Positions 52,852 to 57,478 of a stretch of 64,000 nucleotides of DNA are shown piece after piece. Each line of letters begins with the position of its first letter. The stretch's first letter is position 1. Under the pieces are notes generated by a model that worked only from the letters and a program-made list of their open reading frames with translations, was not told the origin of the DNA and did not search any database. The position numbers and the translations under genes are program-made. Origin of the DNA: Verrucomicrobiia bacterium (GTDB lineage: Bacteria > Verrucomicrobiota > Verrucomicrobiia > Verrucomicrobiales > Akkermansiaceae); the NCBI GenBank assembly GCA_030432565.1, contig JAUIGV010000025.1, positions 1-64,000 on the forward strand, read 5' to 3'.

Positions 52852-52959
52852 CTCATCTCCGAACGAATTACCACCACCAAGCGAAATCACCCCTCTGGGT
52901 AGCTTCTCACGCCGGCAAATTCAACTGCCATCATCACAAGAAGTCCAATGCTGATTTTC

Positions 52960-52973
52960 CAACATTTATGTTG
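52960..52973. promoter_or_regulatory. palindromic operator candidate for the BlaI-type repressor
   Basis: CAACAT-TT-ATGTTG: both six-base arms are exact inverted copies. It lies 32 bases before the blaI-like start. BlaI/MecI repressors bind dyads built on TACA-N2-TGTA; this site keeps the ACA/TGT core (ACAT...ATGT) with the same two-base centre. Autoregulation of the operon is the simple reading. Confidence 0.6.
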
Positions 52974-53004
52974 CAGGTTTTTTAGCATCCATTACGATCC
53001 CGTC

Positions 53005-53373
53005 ATGAACCGTTTGGAAAAAGGTGAACTCTCGCGTCGCGAACGACAGATCCTCGATATCCTGTATCGTTTGGGAGAAGCCACCGCCCAGGACGTGCAG
53101 GACGAACTGCCCGATCCTCCTTCCTACTCAGCTGTCCGGGCTCTTCTCGCCACCCTCGAAAACAAGGACATGGTGAAGCACTCCAAGGAAGGGCGCCGCT
53201 ATCTTTACAGTCCCGTTATCAACGAGAACAAGGCCAAGCGCACGGCTCTCAAAAACCTTTTGGGAACCTTCTTTAAAGGAAAGCCCGAGAACCTCGTCGC
53301 CGCTCTTCTCGATCCGAGCGATCAGCAGCTCAGCGAAAAGGAAATCGCCGAGATTCGCAAACTCATCAAGTAG
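53005..53373 (+). CDS. BlaI/MecI-family winged-helix repressor
   Basis: 122 residues from ATG 53005 (frame open from 52948). Winged helix at ~8-75: LSRRERQILDILYRLGEATAQDV, SYSAVRALLATLENKDMV (recognition helix) and EGRRYLYSPVI (wing). The remainder is the dimerisation helix pair (ALKNLLGTFFKGKPENLVAALL). In known systems such repressors are cut or released when the partner membrane protease senses a signal. The partner gene starts ten bases downstream. A palindrome at 52960-52973 is the probable operator. Confidence 0.93.
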   Translation: MNRLEKGELSRRERQILDILYRLGEATAQDVQDELPDPPSYSAVRALLATLENKDMVKHSKEGRRYLYSPVINENKAKRTALKNLLGTFFKGKPENLVAALLDPSDQQLSEKEIAEIRKLIK

Positions 53374-53382
53374 TCGCAAGCC

Positions 53383-54315
53383 ATGCTCATTCCTTCGCTC
53401 GTCTTCTCCCTCCTCGCGGCCTTCGCGATGTGGGTTTTCGTGCGACGGAATCCCGCCACCGACCCCCGGGTCACTGTCGCCATCCTTGCGCTCCTTCTTG
53501 TCCTCCCTCTTCTCAATTTCCTCCCCAAATACTCGGTCACGGTCGCTGGAAACAGCGAATCCGCCTCATCGCCGAGCCCCTGGGTTTTCCCCGCAATTTG
53601 GACCGTCGGTTTTCTTTTTTTCGGACTTCGTGGACTCATTGATGTCCTCTCAATGCAACGCTGGAATCGCGAATCGAGACTGGCGAATGATCTCCCGGCC
53701 TTTCAGGAAACCCTCGCTGAACTCGGCATCTCCAGAAGAGTTGACCTGCGCATTCATCCGAGGCTCACTTCGCCGGTCGTCTCCGGGTTGATCCGCCCAC
53801 GAATTTACCTGCCCGAGAGTTCCACCGACTGGTCTCCCCAGACCCTTAAGATGGCGCTCCTTCACGAACTTGGCCACGTCCAGCGTCGCGACCTTTGGAT
53901 GGCCACACTCGCGCATGTCGTCTGCGTCCTTCATTGGTTTAATCCCGCGGTGTGGTGGTTGCGTCGCACTTTCCTCTCCCAGTGCGAATATGCCTGTGAT
54001 GCTCACTTGGTTGAAAAAGGGACCGACCCCCGCATCTATGCCAACGCCCTTTGCGACGTGGCCCAATCGGCCTCCGCTCCCCCGCTTTCTCTTGCCATGG
54101 CCGGCCATGTGCCCCTGCGCGAGCGCATAATCTTTCTTTCGCGAGGTGGCCGGCGAGGCTCGGTCCTTCTCTCCGGACTCATTTTGCTGACTGCGAGCAG
54201 CGCCATCGCGATGAGCATGATTCGCTTCGTTCCGGAACGCGCAAAGGCCCCGCTCCCGGCCCCCATGAACGAAGTCGATCTTCGCTTCAGTGCCGACCCC
54301 TTTCCTGGCGATTAG
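53383..54315 (+). CDS. M56 family membrane metalloprotease (BlaR1-like, no beta-lactam sensor)
   Basis: 310 residues. Membrane helices at the N-terminus (LVFSLLAAFAMWVFV, VTVAILALLLVLPLLNFL, WVFPAIWTVGFLFFGLRGLI). The zinc protease site is LLHELGHVQRRDLW (HExxH, ~165) with a downstream Glu in QCEYACDAHLVEKG. One further helix (GSVLLSGLILLTASSAIAMSMI) is followed by only ~40 residues. BlaR1 has a ~250-residue penicillin-binding sensor after that helix; here it is missing, so the signal is not a beta-lactam bound by this protein. It should inactivate the BlaI-type repressor next door. Confidence 0.9.
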   Translation: MLIPSLVFSLLAAFAMWVFVRRNPATDPRVTVAILALLLVLPLLNFLPKYSVTVAGNSESASSPSPWVFPAIWTVGFLFFGLRGLIDVLSMQRWNRESRLANDLPAFQETLAELGISRRVDLRIHPRLTSPVVSGLIRPRIYLPESSTDWSPQTLKMALLHELGHVQRRDLWMATLAHVVCVLHWFNPAVWWLRRTFLSQCEYACDAHLVEKGTDPRIYANALCDVAQSASAPPLSLAMAGHVPLRERIIFLSRGGRRGSVLLSGLILLTASSAIAMSMIRFVPERAKAPLPAPMNEVDLRFSADPFPGD

Positions 54316-54387
54316 AGCAAAGATTTTCTTATCAACCGAAATCGACTCTGGAAAGTTCCCGGAACTACGGCACGTTCCTATAAACGA

Positions 54388-55824
54388 ATGGGTCGGCACG
54401 TCAAATCATCGAGAGAGGTCCTCGCCTGGATTGCGGCGCAGCGGCGGGCCACCTCGATTAGCAGTGTCATTATTGCCCTGCTCCTGATGCTCTTGATCGG
54501 AATCCTGCTTTACCTCATCAATCTCACCATCGACCGAAAGGACATCCCCCGGCAGGTCACCTACATCGCGCCCCCCTCGGAGGAAATTGACAACGATGCT
54601 TCACAGCAAAAGGCTCAGGTTCAGGTCGCACGCAGACCCACTCCGCCGGGAGGAGGGGCTCCCTCGAAAATCATCTCCGCAGTCACCGCCTCCCCTGTCG
54701 CCGCTCCTACCATGGTTGAGCCTGCCCTCGATCAGACTTTTGGGATCGACGAAGGTTTTGGCAGCGCTTCCGATCAGGGCTTCGGCGGCGGGGATTTCGG
54801 CACCGTCCCGGGCGGAGCCGGCAAACGCTGCAATGCCGACGATCGTCTCGCACGACTTGCCTCCACCGGCGGCTCACCGGAGTGTGAGACCGCGGTCATC
54901 AACGCGCTCCGCTATCTGACCAAAAAACAACACCAGGAAGGGTATTGGGGCGAGGAACATCGCTGCGGAATCACCGGATTGGCCCTGCTTGCCTACCTCG
55001 GACATTGCGAAACGCCGGTCTCCGAGGAGTTCGGCGAAGCCGTTTTTAACGCCACCGTCTACCTCATCGATCGCGCCATGAAAAACAAGGGACGGATCTT
55101 TGACGATGAAGGCGGCCCGTGGTGCTACGAACACGCCATTGCCACTTACGCCCTCTGCGAAAGCTACCTCTTCAGCCGCTCCTTTGGGTATCACATTCCC
55201 AATCTCGAGAAAGTTGTTCAGGGAGCGGTCCAATGGATCATCGACTCCCAAAACTCCGTGGGCAGTTGGGGCTACCGCTACGGTGGCGGAGGTCGCTACG
55301 ACACCTCGATTACCGCGTGGCATCTGCAGGCGCTGAAAGCCGCCAAGTCGACCGGCTTGAAATTCCCGAAACTGCAGGACTCCGTCAACCGGGGCCTCAA
55401 ATCCCTGATCAACACCCAGTTGCCCAGCGGTGGATTTGGCTACGATCTCAACCGGAAGGACGAAGGAAATTTACCCCTCACCGGTGCCGGGGTGCTTTGC
55501 CTCCAGCAACACAACGGACGCCGCGATTTTGATGCGCGCCAAGGGATCGCCCACATCGCCAGGAATTCCCGTTTTGACTTCAAAAAGAACGCCAACCTTT
55601 ACGAACACTACTACGTTTCACAGGCCGCGATGAACGAAGGCGGCGCTTTCTGGAAAAGCTACAACAAGATGTTCCGTGACCAATTGGTGACCAATCAAAG
55701 CCAGGACGGCTCGTGGCCCAACCCGCCTGGCAACAAGCACTCGGCTGGCGAAATTTACAACACCGCCCTCGCCACCCTGATGCTCGAAGTCTACTACCGC
55801 TACCTCCCCGGCACCGGAAAATAG
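54388..55824 (+). CDS. membrane-anchored protein with prenyltransferase/squalene-cyclase-type repeats
   Basis: 478 residues. One N-terminal transmembrane helix (ISSVIIALLLMLLIGILLYLINL, ~24-46), a Pro/Gly-rich linker (~50-150), then an alpha/alpha-barrel domain (~165-478) with QW-like repeats: KKQHQEGYWGEEH, DSQNSVGSWGYRYGG, TQLPSGGFGYDL and NQSQDGSWPNPPG. The DxDD acid motif of squalene-hopene cyclases is not found, so a cyclase role is unlikely. Proteins of this shape are frequent in Planctomycetes and Verrucomicrobia and are thought to bind peptides or lipids. It starts 72 bases after the M56 protease gene. Confidence 0.85.
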   Translation: MGRHVKSSREVLAWIAAQRRATSISSVIIALLLMLLIGILLYLINLTIDRKDIPRQVTYIAPPSEEIDNDASQQKAQVQVARRPTPPGGGAPSKIISAVTASPVAAPTMVEPALDQTFGIDEGFGSASDQGFGGGDFGTVPGGAGKRCNADDRLARLASTGGSPECETAVINALRYLTKKQHQEGYWGEEHRCGITGLALLAYLGHCETPVSEEFGEAVFNATVYLIDRAMKNKGRIFDDEGGPWCYEHAIATYALCESYLFSRSFGYHIPNLEKVVQGAVQWIIDSQNSVGSWGYRYGGGGRYDTSITAWHLQALKAAKSTGLKFPKLQDSVNRGLKSLINTQLPSGGFGYDLNRKDEGNLPLTGAGVLCLQQHNGRRDFDARQGIAHIARNSRFDFKKNANLYEHYYVSQAAMNEGGAFWKSYNKMFRDQLVTNQSQDGSWPNPPGNKHSAGEIYNTALATLMLEVYYRYLPGTGK

Positions 55825-55947
55825 CTCCCCGCTCCATGCGACCCGGGATGATGCTCCGCTGAAATCACAAGCCGCGAACGAGGGATTTTATTTTCGTAAC
55901 CTTTCTGTGAATCCCGGCGTAGACCCACAAATCAGAAACCAGAAGCC

Positions 55948-56937
55948 ATGAAATTTAATATTCTCCTCGCCGCCACTTGTATCGCCATTGGCGCATCCAT
56001 TGCCTGGCTGGCAAAGCCCGACCCGAAAGCTGATACCGCTGAGGCTGAAGTCGTCGAAAACAAGCCTCGTTCAAACGGCAAGATCGGCTCTTCCGAAAGC
56101 CAGAAGCGCGCAACCAGCGAGCGCACCATTGTTGAGCCCGAAGAGGTTCCACCGGTCGCGATCATCCCTGCTGACGGCGAGGGGCGCGAACAAGCCCGCG
56201 AAATGGGGAACCGAATGGAGCAAATGTTCCGCAAGCGCCAGCAAGCCAAGCTTGACGCACGCATCGCAAAACTCGTTTCCCAACTGAATCTCACCCCGAC
56301 CCAGGAAGCGGCCCTTCGCAAGGCTGCCGCAGACAGGATGAGCAGCTTTGGTGAAATGATGAAGGGTGATGTCGACCCATCGAAAATCAGCGAGATGTTG
56401 AAAGCCGATGTCATTGATGAGGCCCTTGCCGACATCCTCACTCCGGAACAACAGGAAGAACTTGAAGCCGTCAAGAAGCGCGAAATCGCCAATAAGGTCG
56501 AAGCGCAGGCCCTTAAGGAACTCGCAAAATTGAGCAATCTTGATCTGACCCAGGAACAAAAAGACGCCGCCTATGACATTCTCTACAAGGACGCCCAAGC
56601 ATCTGTCGGAAATGAAACACCCGCGACCGGGATCGTATCGATGATCACCGAGGGATTTGGCATCGAGTTGGACTCGGACACCCTGGGAGTGGCCACCGCG
56701 ATGATCCCCGACATCGGCGACATCGAAAGCGGTGAGGTCGAGCAAGACCCGCAGGCCATGATGGCCAAAGCCCAGGAAAATATGACCAAGCGGATCGACG
56801 ACAAAGTCGAAGCGATGCGGCCCGTCCTCAACGACAACCAACTGAATCAATACCGCAAGGATCTCGAGCTGAAATCAGGCGGCATTTTCGGAGGCCTTTT
56901 GAACGGCTTTGGTGCCGGCGGAGAAGACGGCGAGTAA
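55948..56937 (+). CDS. exported coiled-coil protein with LTxxQ-type motifs
   Basis: 329 residues. N-terminal hydrophobic segment (ILLAATCIAIGASIAWLA, ~4-22) acting as signal or anchor. Mostly helical and charged, with three repeats of the CpxP/Spy kind: LNLTPTQEAALRKAA (~115), ILTPEQQEELEAV (~163) and LDLTQEQKDAAYDI (~197). In CpxP and Spy the LTxxQ motif marks periplasmic chaperones that respond to envelope stress. A Gly-rich end follows (GGIFGGLLNGFGAGG). 123 bases separate it from the previous gene; co-transcription is possible but unproven. A strong terminator follows at 56957-56991. Confidence 0.72.
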   Translation: MKFNILLAATCIAIGASIAWLAKPDPKADTAEAEVVENKPRSNGKIGSSESQKRATSERTIVEPEEVPPVAIIPADGEGREQAREMGNRMEQMFRKRQQAKLDARIAKLVSQLNLTPTQEAALRKAAADRMSSFGEMMKGDVDPSKISEMLKADVIDEALADILTPEQQEELEAVKKREIANKVEAQALKELAKLSNLDLTQEQKDAAYDILYKDAQASVGNETPATGIVSMITEGFGIELDSDTLGVATAMIPDIGDIESGEVEQDPQAMMAKAQENMTKRIDDKVEAMRPVLNDNQLNQYRKDLELKSGGIFGGLLNGFGAGGEDGE

Positions 56938-56944
56938 AGCGACC

Positions 56945-57478
56945 CTAAAATTCTTCAGGCCCGCGCTCATCCTTGAGCCGGGCCTTTTTTTCGCGCGCTT
57001 CCCGGAAAAAACTCTTCAGTATCCCCACGCACTCGTCCTCCATCACCCCCATCGTGATTTCGCAGCGATGGTTCAGCGGCGGATTACTTTGCAGAAGATT
57101 AATCCAGCCGCCGGCCGCCCCCCCCTTCGGATCCATCGCCCCGTATACCACCCGGTCCGGCCGACAGTGAACAATCGCTCCGGCACACATCGGGCAGGGC
57201 TCCTTGGTCACGTAAAGAGTTGCACCTTCAAGCCTCCAATCACCATAAGCGGTCTGCGCCGAGGTCAAAGCAAGCATCTCGGCGTGAGCAGTGGCATCCT
57301 TGAGTGTTTCGACCTGATTCCAGGCTCGCGCGATAACCTGTCCATCACGGACGATGACGGCCCCGATTGGCACTTCGCCGACTTCATAAGCCCGACCCGC
57401 CTCCCGCAGGGCCTGACTCATGAAAAAGAGGTCGCTCTGAAAGTCAATCGACTGCTCACTCTCGAAATCAAATTCCAT
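56945..57478 (-). CDS. tadA: tRNA-specific adenosine deaminase
   Basis: 177 residues from ATG 57478 (frame open to 57586 but overlapping trmO). Deaminates A34 to inosine in tRNA-Arg(ACG). Zinc motifs: DATAHAEMLAL (HAE, with the proton-shuttling Glu) and EPCPMCAGAIVH (PCxxC). VPIGAVIVRDG and ARAWN form the deaminase core. Eight bases after the trmO stop, in a crtI-trmO-tadA run. Its last codons contain the terminator hairpin of the converging gene. Confidence 0.94.
   Translation of the reverse strand: MEFDFESEQSIDFQSDLFFMSQALREAGRAYEVGEVPIGAVIVRDGQVIARAWNQVETLKDATAHAEMLALTSAQTAYGDWRLEGATLYVTKEPCPMCAGAIVHCRPDRVVYGAMDPKGGAAGGWINLLQSNPPLNHRCEITMGVMEDECVGILKSFFREAREKKARLKDERGPEEF
56957..56991 (+). 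terminator. terminator of the LTxxQ gene, embedded in the tadA 3' end
   Basis: AGGCCCG (56957-56963) pairs with CGGGCCT (56979-56985) and GCTCA (56965-56969) with TGAGC (56974-56978); loop TCCT, one bulged C, then seven T (56985-56991). It ends rightward transcription 20 bases after the 55948 gene. The same bases code for the last residues of tadA on the other strand. Confidence 0.88.

Follow-up and report, generated by a model that had tools for sequence, protein, structure and literature searches.

The conserved unit to which the locus described here belongs consists of the repressor BlaI, the membrane protease M56, and LipA (label coined here), a lipoprotein that other genera encode divergently from blaI. 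The best explanation of the data, to which we assign a probability of about 0.6, is a BlaI/M56 switch that senses through a short C-terminal tail of the protease and acts on the blaI-M56 operon and on lipA. SQ and LTQ, the two genes which follow blaI and M56 in the window, i.e. the 64-kb stretch of contig C32 analysed here from a genome of 5.9 Mb, were added later, vary between lineages, and are local company only.

The ORF list places blaI, M56, SQ, and LTQ in the order, on the plus strand, and at the coordinates proposed by the first-pass annotation (Table 1), with intergenic gaps of 9 bp (blaI-M56), 72 bp (M56-SQ), and 123 bp (SQ-LTQ). The blaI frame contains an additional, earlier ATG at 52948. 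BlaI matched the Pfam family Penicillinase_R with 101.7 bits (cut-off 22.6) and, in phmmer searches, structures of MecI and BlaI at 8.5e-7 or better; a defence library yielded weak winged-helix matches only. When the gaps were folded, no T-run terminator was seen between the four genes. The strong terminator previously noted after LTQ was likewise predicted by folding; it falls within the 3' end of a convergent tadA-like gene and was missed by the consensus scan, probably due to a one-base bulge. Neither a beta-lactamase nor a PBP2a gene was found among the scanned genes that flank the locus or lipA, which, for these genes, agrees with the earlier statement that a beta-lactamase is lacking.

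Table 1 Predicted features of the blaI-M56 locus, and operator-like sites at a candidate gene in related genomes
Feature	Position	Strand	Basis
BlaI operator copy 1 (predicted), TGCTGATTTTCCAACA, one departure from TGCT-N8-AGCA	52949..52964	+	
BlaI operator copy 2 (predicted), TGCAGGTTTTTTAGCA, one departure	52972..52987	+	
sigma70-like promoter TTGCAG-16-TACGAT, operator-overlapped	52971..52998	+	sequence reading and 21-locus conservation
blaI, BlaI/MecI repressor, 122 aa	53005..53373	+	ORF and Pfam; MecI/BlaI structures matched by phmmer
M56 membrane protease, BlaR1-like core, without sensor domain	53383..54315	+	Pfam, profile, fold, motifs
M56 C-terminal motif EVDLRFSADPFP, residues 297-308, common to LipA	54271..54306	+	
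SQ, membrane-anchored alpha/alpha-barrel protein, lineage-variable neighbour	54388..55824	+	ORF and Pfam
LTQ, LTxxQ (CpxP/Spy-like) protein, one 13-genome subclade	55948..56937	+	ORF and Pfam
Intrinsic terminator, hairpin and T run	56957..56991	+	predicted by folding
DUF4349 lipoprotein, operator-like sites	L233 2760-2825; L243 4050-4110; L244 4016-4075		

The sequence preceding blaI is closely similar in all 21 genus loci for which upstream sequence is available. The predicted blaI promoter, which remained under the threshold of the consensus scan, has a -10 box ending 6 nt ahead of the blaI ATG. Operator copy 1 is located at about -56, a position it also occupies in most relatives within the genus, and copy 2 begins 23 bp downstream of copy 1. 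In other genera, the 16-bp dyad TGCT-N8-AGCA is repeated in the intergenic regions between blaI and the divergent lipA. Sites were counted as operators if they showed at most one departure in the eight fixed bases plus AT core and were located not more than 170 bp upstream of the gene. By this rule, an operator precedes lipA in 32 of 32 loci (from 57 genomes with a lipA match) and blaI in 30 of 31 loci, where the dyad overlaps, as judged from sequence only, the promoter of blaI itself; when lipA and blaI are divergent, one site can count for both genes. Operators were found upstream of none of 29 SQ, 27 LTQ, and 28 M56 genes (30 loci each, minus those without 170 bp of upstream sequence), the M56 count being a weak control because the region upstream of M56 is blaI coding sequence.

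Only three sites in the window conform to the rule, including the two at blaI, as compared with a mean of 0.8 in a first-order Markov control (20 runs). Raw counts of operator-like sites per genome do not exceed those of the reversed pattern (10 vs 10 in the genome under study), and only sites recurring at orthologous promoters were therefore used. The second blaI of the genome, on contig C53, is associated with another dyad, TACGAC-N4-GTCGTA, which argues that TGCT-N8-AGCA belongs to the BlaI of the window. A description of the operator as the palindrome CAACATTTATGTTG, of which copies without mismatch occurred only at blaI, was abandoned in favour of TGCT-N8-AGCA on inspection of the lipA/blaI intergenic regions from other genera. 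Perfect copies of TGCT-N8-AGCA are also located before blaI in records of Phycisphaerae, Gemmatimonadetes, and Verrucomicrobium (L254 at 5092; L255 at 129 and 148; L259 at 5201 and 5246), where the M56 proteins are larger. Judged by these sites, the operator type occurs in more than one phylum and is not peculiar to this system.

The operator counts make lipA the best-supported candidate target of BlaI/M56, and the predicted regulon is well supported by sequence. In the genome under study, lipA is situated on contig C27 and is preceded by two operator sites, one of which (TGCTGTTTTTCTAGCA) is found 75 bp before the point where the match begins, and by a TTGACG box. Two YkuD L,D-transpeptidase genes, scoring far above the PF03734 cut-off, are divergent from it. 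LipA had no matches in Pfam, NCBIfam, or the PDB, and its single-sequence structure model was poor (mean pLDDT 34). LipA-like proteins were retrieved from 10 Burkholderia and enterobacterial plasmid-collection records; in nine of the ten, the match stops before the tail. The M56 search of contigs yielded at least 32 loci. Among 59 genomes of the family, 37 contain both M56 and lipA at E 1e-30, two contain M56 only, three lipA only, and 17 neither (Fisher p 6e-10, kinship uncorrected); within the genus, the corresponding numbers are 21, 2, 1, and 3 (p 0.013, kinship likewise uncorrected). In G026, BlaI/M56 is present but LipA was not matched; conversely, G008, G027, and G056 contain LipA but gave no M56 match at the cut-off. 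Some of the exceptions are perhaps contig ends; G014, which was counted as lacking lipA, harbors a lipA fragment at the end of a contig.

Operator-like sites also occur at other genes. A LolA-like secreted protein, encoded beside aspartate kinase (L230 3236-3922 and relatives, L282-L311), has such a site over or near the start codon of its gene in 11 of the 22 genus genomes counted as containing blaI, and in neither of two genomes without the pair; G008, with a weak M56 match, was entered as containing blaI by default. As the TGTTAA of this site could instead represent a -10 box, the protein was not accepted as a firm regulon member and is retained as a candidate. Further candidates are a caspase-like gene and the genes of DUF4349 and DUF1375 lipoproteins, for each of which between one and three genomes show such sites: the site lies just upstream of the gene of a caspase-domain secreted protein in two genus genomes (L231 3755; L248 3079), and two sites precede the gene of the DUF4349 lipoprotein in three (Table 1). 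In one Akkermansiaceae record (L253 5145-6897), blaI, M56, and lipA all appear to be frame-broken, by decay or by assembly error. The contig ends L104 10023 and L248 4076 translate as GDVYKRQ and VSYTHLTL, which we take to be typical adapter-derived ends of metagenome assemblies.

The M56 protein (310 aa) matches Peptidase_M56 of Pfam with 114.2 bits (cut-off 31) and contains both the HEXXH and the EXXXD motif of the BlaR1/MecR1-type core (HELGH at residue 161, EYACD at 202). The cryo-EM structures of BlaR1 match the core by profile with an E value of 1.9e-18, and its predicted fold likewise matches BlaR1 of S. aureus. The first-pass annotation had described the protease as lacking the BlaR1 sensor domain, and we concur: no C-terminal penicillin-binding sensor domain was identified in M56, the absence being deduced from the end of the chain about 30 residues past its last helix, and the score against blaR1_generic amounts to 72.3 bits (cut-off 400). 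According to PMC9834060, the C terminus of BlaR1 is located outside the membrane; by analogy, the tail of M56 should therefore be periplasmic.

This tail carries the motif ExxxRxxAxPFP, in which R, A, F, and the final P are present in 37 of 37 M56 proteins and E and the inner P in 36 each, and which is preceded by a variable linker. Of 34 LipA proteins, 33 retain the R, A, and F at a distance of 3-14 residues from the C terminus, and in the same 33 the best-scoring window on a matrix of the M56 tail is located within 14 residues of the end; the exception is LipA of G045, shortened by a stop. The median LipA score is 11.9, none of 1700 shuffles exceeded 11.3, and 20 of the 34 tails scored above all shuffles; chance windows in background proteins reached up to 10.7, so that LipA scores and chance scores partly overlap. 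Besides the score, the position of the motif and its rarity across the genus support the common tail. Nine LipA tails, including the truncated one, scored below 8.5 and are therefore backed by their position, not by their score. A codon-pattern scan of 27 genus genomes gave 53 matches (20 for the reversed pattern), which by position comprise 23 M56 genes (one per genome having M56), 12 LipA genes, and 18 others, a number close to the control level. A recurring extra match, in G002, lies at a long distance from the terminus of a secretion/pilus ATPase-like protein. Three further matches outside M56 and LipA were inspected and showed no motif-bearing open frame of at least 50 aa.

Since the near-invariant tail of the protease recurs in its putative target, the simplest reading is that the two proteins have one binding partner in common. 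We propose that BlaI binds TGCT-N8-AGCA, thereby repressing both the blaI-M56 operon, in which it is itself encoded, and the distant lipA, and that M56 acts as a BlaR1-type membrane zinc protease carrying the periplasmic tail in place of the beta-lactam-binding domain. A changed contact of the tail in the envelope would then, by analogy to BlaR1, produce a periplasmic signal that activates the cytoplasmic zinc site of M56; active M56 would cleave BlaI, so that blaI-M56 and lipA would be derepressed and LipA would be made. The tail of LipA would probably compete for the partner of the M56 tail and thus feed back on the switch, the sign being positive or negative according to whether the partner activates M56 or keeps it inactive. 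The association with L,D-transpeptidases suggests the state of the cell wall as input. Our more specific, and tentative, suggestion is that the protease has swapped its ligand-binding domain for a tail of about 12 residues, and that the main lipoprotein of the regulon is a decoy which, by copying the tail, resets the signal.

SQ matches SQHop_cyclase_C of Pfam weakly (27.8 bits, cut-off 26.1) and scores far under the NCBIfam cyclase cut-off (TIGR01507, 31.3 vs 431.1 bits); it does not contain the DxDD motif and, by that test, is therefore not a working squalene-hopene cyclase. The SQ family has 15 matches in the genome, several of them in tandem (for members see G000:C68:74286-78745 and 105665-108364), and most of the SQ-family proteins read possess an N-terminal anchor of the same kind. 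SQ remnants persist 3' of blaI/M56 in G025, G015, and G006 (L100 6865-7227, L101 5842-6066, L113 6488-6706). In the tree, a single clade comprises the in-place SQ genes and the copies from G011 and G021, which stand elsewhere, and from G008, which is at a contig start. This clade indicates that SQ probably adjoined M56 in an ancestor within the genus and was then repeatedly lost or moved. LTQ contains LTxxQ motifs at residues 115, 164, and 200, and its match to the LTXXQ family is marginal (25.4 bits, cut-off 24.3); a six-frame scan of the genome for this family gave no matches.

The first-pass annotation had raised the possibility that all four genes form an envelope-stress system, with SQ as the sensor controlling M56 and LTQ as an output or feedback chaperone. 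The common strand, gaps without a T-run terminator, and the strong terminator after LTQ agree with this, as do the old link of SQ within the genus and the position of LTQ 3' of M56 in 13 of 13 members of one subclade of the M56 tree (in G021, with three unrelated genes in between). However, SQ and LTQ part from blaI/M56 in most relatives, an outcome which the first-pass annotation had itself named as a refutation. The genus sample comprised 23 loci, from the window and from 22 other genomes in which M56 was matched at E 1e-90 or better. LTQ occupies its place at 13 of these loci, SQ is intact at nine and a remnant at three, and the complete set occurs at seven; at 12 M56 loci outside the genus, two of them on pieces of only 3.6 and 6.9 kb, neither SQ nor LTQ was found. 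An M56 at this cut-off is absent from four genus genomes (G005, G008, G013, and G019). G005 (L346, G005:C6), an 80% complete genome in which lipA was not found, has BlaI and its operator intact and a short remnant of M56. SQ has decayed in place next to intact BlaI/M56, and neither SQ nor LTQ is preceded by an operator or by an upstream region conserved across subclades. The sensor role of SQ and the standing of the two genes as defining outputs are thus not supported, and the four-gene operon is very improbable. LTQ as an output survives in part: it follows M56 throughout its subclade, but it is lineage-restricted and without an operator, and in this lineage the blaI operon may carry it as a passenger or have it as an output. 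Transcription from the blaI promoter may continue into SQ and LTQ, but the two are not the conserved output. What stands of the envelope-stress proposal is a BlaI/M56 pair without a PBP-type sensor, which most likely watches the cell envelope.

Two other readings leave lipA under BlaI/M56 control or leave the switch in place and differ in what the tail or the signal means. The shared tail might serve localisation or processing instead of sensing, in keeping with its location at the extreme C terminus of M56 and close to the end of LipA; a general sorting signal, however, would be odd, as 35 of the 53 codon-pattern matches fall in two putatively co-regulated proteins and the remainder do not rise above the control, and we regard this as unlikely. 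The system might also respond to beta-lactams or peptidoglycan damage, another protein sensing the beta-lactam and an L,D-transpeptidase being a useful output. This is compatible with the tail-sensing switch, from which it differs in the signal, and is supported by the YkuD L,D-transpeptidase genes adjoining lipA in 11 of 16 genus loci (motif test). Against it, this test showed no transpeptidase beside lipA in the other five loci, M56 has no penicillin-binding domain, and the scanned neighbours include no beta-lactamase; we regard a response of this kind as possible but doubtful. The tail-sensing BlaI/M56 switch remains our preferred reading.

This switch resembles BlaI-BlaR1 and MecI-MecR1 of Staphylococcus aureus and Bacillus licheniformis in the repressor gene beside that of an M56 gluzincin membrane protease, in the HEXXH and EXXXD motifs, in the operator dyads over the promoter of the repressor, and in the match to the BlaR1 fold. 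In contrast to these systems, it has a short conserved tail and no beta-lactam sensor domain, its best-supported target is a lipoprotein and not a beta-lactamase or PBP2a, and its predicted operator is TGCT-N8-AGCA. Lack of the sensor domain is a feature shared with BlaR of Mycobacterium tuberculosis, which PMC9834060 describes as an M56 protease without an equivalent domain and with an unclear mode of signal detection; BlaI of M. tuberculosis is tied to cell division and growth genes in PMC12565901. BlaI_1845 and BlaI_0696 of Clostridium thermocellum control small regulons with blaI, blaR1, and hypothetical proteins according to PMC8457756; in that account the BlaI_1845 regulon is one operon shared with blaI, whereas in the present genus lipA is on another contig. 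LTQ is reminiscent of CpxP/Spy by its LTxxQ motifs and narrowly passed LTXXQ cut-off, and differs by its restriction to one lineage and by the absence of Cpx- or Bae-like genes among the scanned neighbours.

The BlaI/M56 switch is ancient; a literature search of open-licence PMC text retrieved no description of such a pair in Verrucomicrobiota. With its conserved tail, its defined operator, and one well-supported candidate target that shares the tail, the sensorless M56 renders the question of sensing directly testable. The data also suggest that, in Verrucomicrobiota, the targets of BlaI/M56 pairs are envelope lipoproteins and not beta-lactamases.
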